Source: Bacteroidota bacterium (lineage in GTDB: Bacteria > Bacteroidota > Bacteroidia > Cytophagales > Cyclobacteriaceae). Taken from it: a DNA stretch of 64,000 bases. Under the pieces are notes generated by a model. That model saw only the letters and a program-made list of their open reading frames with translations. It ran no database searches and was not told the origin of the DNA. Positions 59,678 through 62,886 of this stretch are shown here, piece by piece; the stretch's first letter is position 1, and every line of letters starts with the position of its first letter. The stretch lies in the NCBI GenBank assembly GCA_016866235.1, contig VGMW01000003.1, positions 62,001 through 126,000 of the forward strand, in the 5' to 3' direction. A program made the position numbers and the translations under genes.

Positions 59678-60784
59678 ATGGGTATGAACTACCCCTCCAT
59701 TAAAATACATCTACCAGAGGAAAATAGTTGGTATGCTTCCGATGCGCTGGCCATCAGAAATGATGTAAAGGATTCAAAGAAATATTTATCTGCACTGATC
59801 GACCTACTGTACTGGTGGCACTACGGCAGCGATGATTTGGAAGTCCAGACTTCGGGCACAACTGGGGTACCGAAAATTCTAAGGTTTTCCCGTGAAGAAG
59901 TAAAGACATCAGCGAGTATTTCGCTTAAGGCCATTCCGATTCTACGGGGCCAGCATACTTTACTGGCCATGGACCTCAAATATGTTGGTGCCAAAATGCT
60001 GGTGGTTCGGTCGCTGATGGCAGGTGCTGATCTCACCGTCGTGCCGCCCACATCAAATCCGTTGCTCTTTCAAAGTCCGATAAAATTCCATTATGCTTCT
60101 TTTGTGCCCTTTCAGATAAATCAAATACTCGGAAACCTAGTTTCAAAAGAGCAATTGAATAACATTGACACCGTCTTGATTGGTGGAGGGCCACTTCAAT
60201 CAAATGTTGCTGAAATTTTATCAGTAATGAAAGGTGATTTTATTCATACCTATGGAATGAGTGAAACGCTTTCCCATGTCGCCATTCGTAGAATCAAAGA
60301 CCAAAGTGACCTGTACACCCTATTGGAAGGTTATCAATATCAAATCGAGCACGATGGATTTTTGTCGGTGATTTCACCATTTCAAAAAGAGGTTATTAAG
60401 ACCATGGATATCGCTGAATCGATTAGCAGCACAACGTTTCGATTATTGGGGAGAGCAGATCTCCTGGTCAATTCAGGCGGCGTTAAACTATTTCCGGATC
60501 TTATGGAACATAAGGTCAGAAAAGTAATTCAGGAATTTCCTGGCATAAAAGATTTCATGTTTACCGGCATTCCGGATTCAATGCTCGGAGAAAAAATGAT
60601 TTTGCTGATTGAAGGTGATCAGGTTTTGGCGTCTGACAACCTGCTTATCCTTGAAAAAATCAGACCACTCCTAAATCGATACGAGGTGCCGAAGGAAATC
60701 TATAACGTCGGAAGTTTCGCCCGAAATGAAAATGGTAAAATAGATCGCACCCGAACCTTAAAGGAATTCCTAAAGGGGCGGTAA
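59678..60784 (+). CDS. menE: o-Succinylbenzoate-CoA ligase (AMP-binding enzyme)
   Basis: Activates o-succinylbenzoate with ATP and CoA. At 368 residues it is the short version seen in Bacteroidota. The P-loop-like A3 motif is VQTSGTTGVPKILRFSREE, the A5 region HTYGMSETLSHVA, and the A8 hinge GRADLLVNSGGVKLFPDL with the catalytic C-terminal Lys in NENGKIDRTR. It is the last gene of the plus-strand men run and is followed by a strong hairpin at 60777-60814. Confidence 0.92.
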   Translation: MGMNYPSIKIHLPEENSWYASDALAIRNDVKDSKKYLSALIDLLYWWHYGSDDLEVQTSGTTGVPKILRFSREEVKTSASISLKAIPILRGQHTLLAMDLKYVGAKMLVVRSLMAGADLTVVPPTSNPLLFQSPIKFHYASFVPFQINQILGNLVSKEQLNNIDTVLIGGGPLQSNVAEILSVMKGDFIHTYGMSETLSHVAIRRIKDQSDLYTLLEGYQYQIEHDGFLSVISPFQKEVIKTMDIAESISSTTFRLLGRADLLVNSGGVKLFPDLMEHKVRKVIQEFPGIKDFMFTGIPDSMLGEKMILLIEGDQVLASDNLLILEKIRPLLNRYEVPKEIYNVGSFARNENGKIDRTRTLKEFLKGR

Positions 60785-60814
60785 AGGACCGGAAAAAATC
60801 CGGCCCTCCCCGCC
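60777..60814. terminator. Bidirectional hairpin between menE and the S24 regulator
   Basis: Outer arms GGCGG/CCGCC and inner arms CCGGA/TCCGG with a 5-A loop form a broken stem starting inside the last codons of menE. A CG-rich hairpin between convergent stop codons (60784 and 60832) fits a two-way transcription stop, though no long T run follows on either strand. Confidence 0.45.
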
Positions 60815-60831
60815 AGTCCGCTAAGACAATT

Positions 60832-61512
60832 TTATTCTGGAAAATTTAAACTGATGAAAGCCTTGGCCGACCAGATTTCCATTACCTCCATGGCATCTAT
60901 CTGATAAGGCGCATATTGTCGGTTATCGGAAACCAAAAACAGTTTACCGTTTTCATCAACATAATTGAAAACCCGTTTGTAAACTACCCCCTCGGACTTG
61001 GTTACCAGTACGTAAGTTTTACCACTTTTTATTTCCGATAGTGTGGCGACATGTTCACCGACGATAATGGTGCCGGATTCCAATGGAAGCATACTGTCTC
61101 CGCTGATTTCAAAGGCACGATAGGTCCCGCTGTTTAAAATTGGCAATGAAAAACGCGGCAACTCCTGGATAAACTCAGGGTCAGAATAGCCGTTTAGGTA
61201 TCCGGCAGCAGCTTTAACTGGTACCAGTTCAATAGTATTTTTAGGCTTGTATAAATCCTCTTCAATCGGCCTTACATTGCCCTTGTTTACTTTTATGATG
61301 TTATCGTAAGAAACCACTCCAAGCAAATCCTCGACCGATACATTTCCTAGTGCTGCTATTTTGCAGATGAGTTCCAACCTCGGCTCTGCCCGACCTTCCT
61401 CATAAGCCCCAACCAATGATCTTTTAATTCCAAGCTCATTGGCAAACTGATCCTGAGTCATGCCTAAACTCTTTCTAATAGCCCTGATGCTTTCATTCAA
61501 TTCCTTTTTCAT
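60832..61512 (-). CDS. LexA-like XRE-S24 transcriptional regulator
   Basis: A 226-residue repressor with an N-terminal XRE helix-turn-helix (residues about 4-62; SLGMTQDQFANELGIKRSLV) and a C-terminal S24 peptidase domain. The self-cleavage serine is Ser140 in EISGDSMLPLESG and the base Lys179 in GVVYKRVF; an Ala-Gly pair (Ala103-Gly104, KAAAGY) sits where LexA and CI-type repressors are cut. So it should cleave itself when activated, most simply by RecA filaments. The ATG at 61512 is chosen over a GTG three codons upstream. It lies 11 nt after the small gene 61524-61778 in one operon, whose promoter is overlaid by two operators. Confidence 0.92.
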   Translation of the reverse strand: MKKELNESIRAIRKSLGMTQDQFANELGIKRSLVGAYEEGRAEPRLELICKIAALGNVSVEDLLGVVSYDNIIKVNKGNVRPIEEDLYKPKNTIELVPVKAAAGYLNGYSDPEFIQELPRFSLPILNSGTYRAFEISGDSMLPLESGTIIVGEHVATLSEIKSGKTYVLVTKSEGVVYKRVFNYVDENGKLFLVSDNRQYAPYQIDAMEVMEIWSAKAFISLNFPE

Positions 61513-61523
61513 GATGTGCACGT

Positions 61524-61778
61524 TTAATTGGAACTAACTTTTTCTTTGCGCCTGAATAATATGATCCTGCCAGATTGTGGATTCCTTTTGCCCATAGAAT
61601 ATAAATTCTTCTGGTAGTACCGATTGGTATCCTTCATCTCTTCAATGTGGCGGAAGATTTTATCCATAATCTCTGAAACTGCATCCTGAGGTTCCGCCAA
61701 AGCGTAACCATAAACATCTGAAAATGAGAAGTTTACCTGAAATCTTCCGGAAGGAAGGCGTACACTTTTGAATTCCAT
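61524..61778 (-). CDS. Small protein upstream of the S24 regulator, unknown function
   Basis: An 84-residue protein with no family that I recognise. The first 45 residues (MEFKSVRLPSGRFQVNFSFS and on to EIMDKIFRHIEEM) could form a small mixed fold, and the C-terminus is very basic (GRIILFRRKEKVSSN). It starts immediately beside operator 61778-61800, with a leader of about 12 nt. The S24 regulator gene follows 11 nt downstream, so both are made together. Being in the regulated transcript, it may act as a modulator or effector of the switch. Confidence 0.7.
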   Translation of the reverse strand: MEFKSVRLPSGRFQVNFSFSDVYGYALAEPQDAVSEIMDKIFRHIEEMKDTNRYYQKNLYSMGKRNPQSGRIILFRRKEKVSSN

Positions 61779-61800
61779 TTGACTAAATTATTTAGTCAAA
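61778..61800. promoter_or_regulatory. Operator 1: 23-bp perfect inverted repeat at the start of the S24 operon
   Basis: TTTGACTAAA (61778-61787) and TTTAGTCAAA (61791-61800) are perfect inverted arms around TTA. The repeat touches the ATG of the 84-residue gene and covers the end of the -7 box. Core: ACTAA-N5-TTAGT. Confidence 0.8.
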
Positions 61801-61827
61801 TATACAACCTTCTTTAGGAAATACTAA
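61797..61827 (-). promoter_or_regulatory. Promoter of the 84-residue gene / S24 regulator operon
   Basis: On minus, TTAG (61827-61824) lies 19 nt before TATATTTG (61804-61797), an exact TAnnTTTG -7 box. The start of transcription would be near 61790, leaving a leader of about 12 nt. The -33 lies in operator 2 and the -7 overlaps operator 1. Confidence 0.65.
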
Positions 61828-61838
61828 TTTTATTAGTA
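61822..61838. promoter_or_regulatory. Operator 2: 17-bp inverted repeat over the -33 element
   Basis: TACTAAT (61822-61828) and ATTAGTA (61832-61838) surround TTT, giving the same ACTAA-N5-TTAGT core as operator 1. The centres are 41 bp apart, about four helical turns, so two dimers could bind the same face. Confidence 0.7.
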
Positions 61839-61845
61839 AAAATTA

Positions 61846-62886
61846 TCACCCCAGCCTTAAAAAGCCAGATTCTGCATTTAAAGCACTTGGAAGGTTGTTT
61901 TCATAAATACCCCCCGTCCCCAGTCCGTGTACCATATCGTTCCTGTAAAGCGCTGTAAACTGTGCTATGGCACTGAGTCCGACAGAAGACTCCAAAGCTG
62001 AAGTAATCCACCAACCCATTTGCCTTTCTTCAGCCAATGCGATCCAATCCCTGGTTCCATAAAATCCACCATGCAGACCTGGTTTAAGAACAATAAAGGT
62101 TGGTGAAAGGCGATCCAAAAGTCTTCCTCGGTCGGCCGAACTTACCCCTATCAATTCCTCATCCAACGCAACCGGAATAGGTGATTCCCGGCACACTTCA
62201 GCCATTAAATCAAGCTGACCAGCTTTTATGGGTTGTTCAATTGATTCAGGTTTAAATACAGATAACCGCTCCAGTTTATGCCAAACATCGGGCTTATGGA
62301 ATGCTCCATTGGCATCCAATCTTATATCAATTTGGTCTCCAAATTCATCCCTCAACCTTTCAAGTAAACTGCATTCTTCATCAAAATTTAGTCCGCCAAC
62401 TTTTAGCTTAATGCACTTAAAACCTTCACCTATTTTTTTCCGGGCCTGCTCCAACATGGCGACCTGATCAGCCATCCAAACCAATCCATTGATTGGAATC
62501 TTCTTCCCTCTCAAAAAGTCAGAATCATAATAAACACCAATGCCTCCATTGAAATAATCTCTTACCGCCATCTCCAATCCAAAACAGACCGATGAGGAAT
62601 ATTCGTTACTGTTAAGTTTCTGCAACACATCATCAGCTCCATTTTGAACGGCTGATAAATTCCTAACCGCCTTCACCAATTGGTTTAGCTCCTGCAGGAC
62701 TACCTGATCTGTCTCCACACTCAATCCTGCCAGAGGAGCCACCTCACCTGTACCTTTTAAGGTATTCTTCTGGTCATCAAAAAACTTGATCAGCCAAATA
62801 CCACGGTCTTCCATATTGCCTCTGGAGGTCCTTGCACTGAAATTGAATTTCAGCTTCAGATATTCATACTCAAGCCGGAATGCCAT
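61846..62886 (-). CDS. menC: o-Succinylbenzoate synthase
   Basis: Enolase-superfamily dehydratase, 346 residues from the ATG at 62886 (another ATG five codons upstream). The catalytic Lys pair is in CIKLKVGG, the metal ligands Asp in IRLDANGAF, Glu in ESIEQPI and Asp in VALDEEL, and the second catalytic Lys in FIVLKPGL. It is the only men gene on minus in this cluster, facing the plus-strand men genes across the S24 unit. It is divergent from queA. No menH or menA was found in the window. Confidence 0.92.
   Translation of the reverse strand: MAFRLEYEYLKLKFNFSARTSRGNMEDRGIWLIKFFDDQKNTLKGTGEVAPLAGLSVETDQVVLQELNQLVKAVRNLSAVQNGADDVLQKLNSNEYSSSVCFGLEMAVRDYFNGGIGVYYDSDFLRGKKIPINGLVWMADQVAMLEQARKKIGEGFKCIKLKVGGLNFDEECSLLERLRDEFGDQIDIRLDANGAFHKPDVWHKLERLSVFKPESIEQPIKAGQLDLMAEVCRESPIPVALDEELIGVSSADRGRLLDRLSPTFIVLKPGLHGGFYGTRDWIALAEERQMGWWITSALESSVGLSAIAQFTALYRNDMVHGLGTGGIYENNLPSALNAESGFLRLG

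Follow-up and report, generated by a model that had tools for sequence, protein, structure and literature searches.

A conserved small gene ahead of lexA in the Cyclobacteriaceae and the paired operators of its promoter

Here, we describe a locus from a bacterium of the family Cyclobacteriaceae in which a small gene for a protein of 84 residues stands directly ahead of the gene for an S24 regulator. The regulator is almost certainly a non-canonical Bacteroidetes LexA of the CTAA-N5-TTAG group. Regulator and operator are of an already published kind, as judged from the parts of the original description used here (Sanchez-Osuna et al. 2021, PMC8565304), and the small upstream gene is the new part; it usually precedes lexA in the Cyclobacteriaceae, and no mention of it was found in the portions of the 2021 LexA paper that were available (PMC8565304). 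The explanation that we consider best, with somewhat more confidence than doubt, is a lexA operon of a Cyclobacteriaceae type in which the small protein is an accessory dedicated to LexA. A previous reading of the sequence alone had proposed a compact autoregulated, damage-responsive switch. The repressor is indeed compact, apparently self-regulated and of a damage-responsive kind, but it would not stand alone: it is very likely the master repressor of the SOS response. The features of the locus are given below in positions of the window, by which we mean the whole stretch of 64,000 nucleotides that was analysed.

60800..60816, minus strand: weak terminator-like hairpin with a T run, 3' of lexA (one found, 1.1 expected in shuffles)
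60832..61521, minus strand: lexA-type XRE-S24 repressor gene (open reading frame and Pfam domains)
61524..61778, minus strand: small gene of 84 aa upstream of lexA (open reading frame and conservation)
61777..61801, no strand: operator 2, a perfect inverted repeat with the core ACTAAATTATTTAGT at 61782-61796, overlapping the -7 end and the start region
61797..61804, minus strand: -7 promoter element TATATTTG, an exact match to the Bacteroidetes consensus
61823..61837, no strand: operator 1, ACTAATTTTATTAGT, covering the -33 position

The regulator and its neighbourhood

The non-canonical LexA of Bacteroidetes combines an HTH_3 domain with an S24 domain, an Ala-Gly cut site and a Ser-Lys dyad, and its motif, CTAA-N5-TTAG, lies ahead of core SOS genes; an extra C-terminal helix is a reported feature, although it was not a criterion of the authors, and a phage origin has been proposed for the family (all after the parts of PMC8565304 used here). 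The window protein resembles this family in its HTH_3 and S24 domains, its Ala-Gly and its Ser-Lys dyad, and likewise in the CTAA-N5-TTAG sites, which are found at its own promoter, ahead of dinB and of a gene with an SRAP domain and, in relatives, ahead of recA and of an splB-like gene (compared with the same parts of PMC8565304). Because of the domains, the cleavage residues, the operators at its own promoter and the motif ahead of SOS genes, we filed the regulator as a Bacteroidetes LexA. Unlike the published proteins, the window copy has no C-terminal extension, the helical nature of which is taken from that description (PMC8565304, as far as it was available).

The S24 gene comprises 229 codons from a GTG, or 226 from an ATG three codons further in. 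Both Pfam matches of its product exceed the curated cut-offs (HTH_3, E=9e-15; Peptidase_S24, E=5e-8); the CI-like HTH (PF01381) covers residues 12-66 and the S24 match residues 128-216 in GTG numbering, in which the predicted cut site is Ala106-Gly107. The dyad, Ser143/Lys182 from the GTG, becomes Ser140/Lys179 when counted from the ATG, so that the sequence-only reading, which had named an XRE-S24 protein with Ser140, Lys179 and an Ala-Gly site, was right in ATG numbering, and the domains and residues are confirmed. In the alignment of the window protein and its relatives, the Ala-Gly pair, the Ser and the Lys are invariant in all 31 rows. The C-terminal extension is present in every aligned protein of the genus (28/28) and of the family (30/30) and is missing from the window LexA, which stops about 30 residues early compared with the aligned relatives (window positions 60785-60850); the 47 nt from the lexA stop codon to menE are too short for the missing stretch.

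On one side of the locus lie menC and queA, and on the other menE, menB, menD and menF, all six names having been assigned by eye. Among 33 loci of the genus, which are of unequal length, the neighbours include menE in 28, menC in 26, queA, menB and menD in 23 each and menF in 14; menE is close by in four of 40 loci of other genera. Since the same men and queA neighbours recur across the genus loci, the arrangement must go back at least as far as much of the genus does. The earlier description of the unit as inserted in the men locus does not hold for a recent insertion, given how regularly menE and menC accompany it.

Promoter, operators and regulon

The 67 bp that separate the small gene from menC contain two exact ACTAA-N5-TTAGT palindromes, at 61782-61796 and 61823-61837. 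Their centres are 41 bp apart, or about four helical turns, just as had been read from the sequence, and the exact -7 element of that reading stands as well (minus strand, 61804-61797). This element equals TAnnTTTG, which we take to be the Bacteroidetes consensus. The repeat of operator 2 has 12-bp arms with 1 bp between them, and the exact palindrome forms its core. The -33 element, 19 nt upstream of the -7 at approximately 61824-61829, is weak (TTAG where TTTG is expected). The claim that an operator covers it is correct for the window but not for the relatives, in which the upstream operator is shifted outwards by about one turn of the helix, so that the -33 stays uncovered. Counted across the whole window, sites with up to one mismatch are no more frequent than expected (two found, 1.5 expected), and the exact motif is not enriched in the genome of the organism either (five, as against 16 for the reversed pattern); what makes the operators significant is that two exact sites share a gap of 67 bp and that they are conserved in the genus. 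An Rfam search of positions 60500-62100 returned no match.

Exactly two CTAA-N5-TTAG sites are found in 29 of 30 promoters of the genus, including that of the window, and the 30th promoter is cut by a contig end; by mononucleotide shuffling, 0.006 would be expected per 160 nt. The operators are spaced 51-54 bp apart in 28 of these promoters, compared with 41 bp in the window. In 23 of the 30, a TTG is found 30 bp ahead of the second operator, with a -7 element resembling TTATTTAG that runs into that operator. For other genera, 40 promoters of 250 nt were inspected, half of which (20/40) contain at least one exact CTAA-N5-TTAG and half (20/40) none.

Helical phasing was analysed in 42 promoters, namely those of the 40 other genera, one genus member and the window, using sites with at most one mismatch, which occur at 1.40 per promoter as against 0.19 in shuffles. 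An exact site has a neighbouring site in 20 of the 42 promoters, and the nearest spacings in these 20 are 21-23, 41-42, 51-52, 61-64 and 104 bp, with one misfit at 29 bp. The phase coherence at 10.5 bp (R=0.76, n=20) was reached by none of 20,000 random sets, and by eight of 20,000 if each spacing was counted once; corrected for the period scan, the corresponding figures are 0/2,000 and 18/2,000. The signal is weaker for exact sites only (nine promoters; 94/20,000, or 108/2,000 after correction for the period scan). Operator spacings that fall mostly at whole helical turns suggest cooperative binding of LexA, and the evidence for phasing is strong but not final, as the sampled genera are not independent of one another. 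While the paired operators are mostly helically phased here, the terms 'cooperativ' and 'helical phas' are absent from the paper on the Bacteroidetes LexA (PMC8565304).

In the promoters of 16 sub-group loci (L163, L164 and 14 among L195-L230) the CTAA motif is almost gone, L195 keeping one distant site, and the small gene is still present. GACA-N5-TGTC occurs in 11 of these promoters and TGTT-N9-AACA in 12, both counts standing without a shuffle comparison. These palindromes ahead of the small gene and lexA likely represent a switch of motif within one family.

Beyond the lexA operon, further operators were sought throughout the genome, as the sequence-only reading had suggested, and they were found ahead of dinB and of a pair formed by a 107-aa gene and an SRAP gene. 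The pattern RCTAA-N5-TTAGY has seven sites in this genome, as against 38 for the reversed control: two at the lexA operon, one ahead of the Pol IV gene (dinB, which scores above one curated cut-off), one ahead of the 107-aa gene and SRAP, and three (L001, L003, L066) that lie within coding ORFs and were taken as chance matches. At L002 (contig C1), the operator at 1501-1515 precedes the 107-aa gene, which overlaps the SRAP gene (the two genes at 1538-2540) and has no match in Pfam or NCBIfam. A 137-aa gene behind an operator in genome G030 (L297) is related to this 107-aa gene (BLASTP E=1e-14 over 78 residues).

No operator was found within 250 nt upstream of recA in the organism itself; in the genus, 13 of 18 recA loci, a count that takes in that of the organism, have one within this distance and five have none. 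For genes of the Pol IV/V type, taken as the best match per genome in 21 genus loci, the motif lies within 100 nt upstream in ten and is lacking there in 11. Two near-complete genomes of the genus contain eight motif sites each, compared with seven and 11 for the reversed control, and the sites precede lexA, recA, dinB, an splB-like gene, small uncharacterised genes and, once, an acyltransferase gene (the splB-like and acyltransferase names were read by eye). The whole-genome counts, which do not rise above the reversed-pattern control, speak against the LexA assignment, as do the recA and Pol IV/V-type loci that lack a site, the 20 family promoters devoid of an exact motif and the missing C-terminal extension. 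Paired operators 32 and 23 bp apart also lie near genes of 114-122 aa at L287 and L300 (G030 and G019), which are further candidate SOS genes of the genus.

The small gene and its linkage to lexA

That an 84-residue gene stands in front of the S24 gene was correctly noticed from the sequence. Since the two genes lie on the same strand with a gap of 2 bp, they are taken as one operon. The small gene is under purifying selection, with dN/dS of 0-0.14 in six pairs, two of which are saturated at silent sites, and the conserved positions of its product (L8, S10-G11, Q14, F17, G24-Y25 and L27) are retained among homologues at 21-39% identity. Two AlphaFold2 models (pLDDT 74 and 80) predict three strands followed by a helix and one more strand, with no sign of a membrane segment. 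Judged by its sequence, the small protein is outside the known families of the libraries searched (Pfam, PHROG, NCBIfam and PDB sequences), and Foldseek searches with the models gave no PDB match and no viral match at E<=0.001. Several candidates were rejected: antithrombins and the DNA-repair protein PprA, the best PDB structure matches (E>=0.2, large rmsd); Spindly, the best hit of a profile search of PDB sequences (E=0.064); scattered Pfam and PHROGs matches of one or two members each (best E 0.0004 and 0.0002, respectively); MutS_IV, another scattered match below its cut-off (E=0.014); and a single NCBIfam match far below its cut-off. Searches of open-licence papers for the partner or for LexA in this group found nothing on the partner.

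Within the genus, the small gene is present in 30 of 36 genomes, that of the organism included, and these are also the 30 genomes with an S24 match at E<=1e-60; the other six, of which four are less than 85% complete, have neither gene and give no more than weak matches. A family profile, built from 18 members of the genus together with four divergent relatives, detects the small gene in 206 of 295 family genomes and in 65 of 84 genera, and a LexA profile finds its target in 269 of the 295 at E<=1e-40. According to a joint tally by eye, 204 genomes have both genes, two the small gene only, 65 LexA only and 24 neither. The two genomes with only the small gene are split into 400 contigs (G598) and 930 contigs (G678), and at least two of the 65 genomes with only LexA carry a diverged copy of the small gene. 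In the genus g276, of which the family profile missed two of three genomes, a diverged ORF (L254, L255) was counted as a relative (hhalign 96.8 and 96.6%).

The linkage to lexA was assessed in 40 loci from 40 genera, drawn among those with the small gene, by asking whether an S24 gene is the first ORF of more than 150 codons to follow within 500 nt. This is the case in 39 of the 40, and in the 40th a single gene, DJ-1/PfpI-like by eye, intervenes; the conserved linkage to S24 genes, which the earlier reading had named as a point to check, is therefore borne out. The distance to lexA is short, or the genes overlap, in many genera, and it reaches 303 nt in some. A second S24 paralogue exists in all eight genomes of one sub-group (L279-L286). 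In seven of the eight it has Ala-Ser instead of Ala-Gly and a shorter C-terminus, and such paralogues may be unable to cleave themselves; that of G493 has both Ala-Gly and the extension. By profile search, each of the eight genomes has a single small gene, located beside LexA, and no similar small ORF was found ahead of the paralogue. Two profile matches of the small gene in one genome are confined to two of the 206 genomes.

LexA also occurs without the small gene in some genera, namely in all four loci of g26 and in one locus each of g221 and g220. In five of the six, the operators are paired at 20-21 bp (g26, the second site having one mismatch) or 52 bp (g221), and the 38 bp of g220 is a misfit. 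As loci without the partner still have operator pairs, neither LexA nor the spacing rule depends on the partner, and the idea that it is what makes the paired operators work was dropped because phased pairs also occur in its absence.

Outside the family, the small gene was not found among the genomes scanned: its profile matches 19 of the 241 genomes in the order, and a narrower profile matches six of 395 in the class, all of them members of the family. When named genomes were scanned with a pattern, 33 loci emerged, in records titled Cyclobacteriaceae, Cytophagales, Flammeovirgaceae or Bacteroidetes. Neither the window protein nor the genus alignment, used as queries, matched plasmids, phages or viral contigs. 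Two other families of the order have small ORFs directly ahead of S24 genes (L263:1840-2055 and L266:1918-2139) that are alike in layout, but their hhalign scores are no better than those of shuffles, and they were set aside.

Possible roles of the small protein

A role directed at LexA is our best bet because the small gene is linked to LexA and not to the S24 paralogue. The protein would be an accessory that tunes DNA binding, dimer contact or cleavage, by analogy with DdrR and gp7, and we regard it as nearly an even prospect that it acts on LexA or RecA. From what is known of the family, a LexA dimer on each operator would block the -33/-7 region; following the spacing rule, the dimers would share one face of the DNA and touch one another. 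RecA filaments on damaged DNA would then induce self-cleavage of LexA at Ala-Gly, again from family knowledge, after which the small protein and fresh LexA would be made together. More tentatively, the 84-aa protein might found a LexA-cofactor family of one bacterial family, binding LexA or the RecA-LexA complex and setting the threshold or reset of the SOS response, with LexA dimers cooperating at helically phased pairs of operators as lambda CI does.

The comparison with known systems is based on layout and description. DdrR is a small corepressor found only in Acinetobacter and encoded beside the S24 regulator UmuDAb, which means that such a design exists (PMC11332147, in the parts used here, as for the following points). 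DdrR and the window protein are both small, restricted to one lineage and encoded next to a damage-responsive S24 regulator, whereas ddrR is transcribed divergently from umuDAb and is unique to Acinetobacter; DdrR acts as a corepressor, and the window protein is likened to it by layout. The phage protein gp7 binds the LexA of Bacillus thuringiensis, as recounted in the same paper (PMC11332147). The proposed parallel is a small protein that would modulate a LexA, drawn from description only; unlike the phage-encoded gp7, the window protein has no relatives in the phage and viral collections searched.

Linkage alone would also fit an effector that merely shares the promoter, which counts against the accessory proposal. 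The small protein would then be an SOS effector, most likely a division inhibitor or another checkpoint protein, placed behind the lexA promoter for dosage. Division inhibitors linked to lexA are known from other phyla (sulA, yneA and divS). This rival, although the main one, seems to us rather unlikely. The small gene comes first after a LexA-type promoter, and the fold models indicate no membrane segment, both in keeping with an effector. In the 2021 paper the phrase 'cell division inhibitor' occurs once, in the introduction, so that in the parts used here the role has no holder in Bacteroidetes (PMC8565304). A pure effector would be expected to leave lexA at times and take an operator of its own, but none does so in the 40 sampled genera, and the protein has no similarity to any Pfam family.

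It is highly improbable that the small ORF is a leader that sets the translation of lexA and has no function as a protein: the short distance or overlap with lexA in many genera would suit a leader, but the low dN/dS, the residues conserved among distant homologues, the gaps of up to 303 nt and the intervening gene do not. Scarcely credible is the view that the S24 gene encodes a phage-type repressor belonging to a mobile element in place of a host SOS repressor, for which the CI-like HTH and the supposed phage descent of the published LexA family itself (in the parts of PMC8565304 used) could be cited, against the constant site among the men genes throughout the genus, the operators ahead of dinB, SRAP and, in relatives, recA, and the lack of partner relatives in the plasmids, phages and viral contigs searched with the window protein or the genus alignment.

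Under the preferred explanation of an accessory dedicated to LexA, as under that of an effector, the locus bears on a system of recent date, since the first description of a Bacteroidetes SOS repressor dates from 2021 (PMC8565304, as far as available). A conserved small protein linked to LexA is a concrete candidate for a cofactor of the repressor or for a checkpoint protein of the SOS response in these bacteria, and the helical phasing of the operator pairs is a testable sign of cooperative binding by a phage-like LexA.
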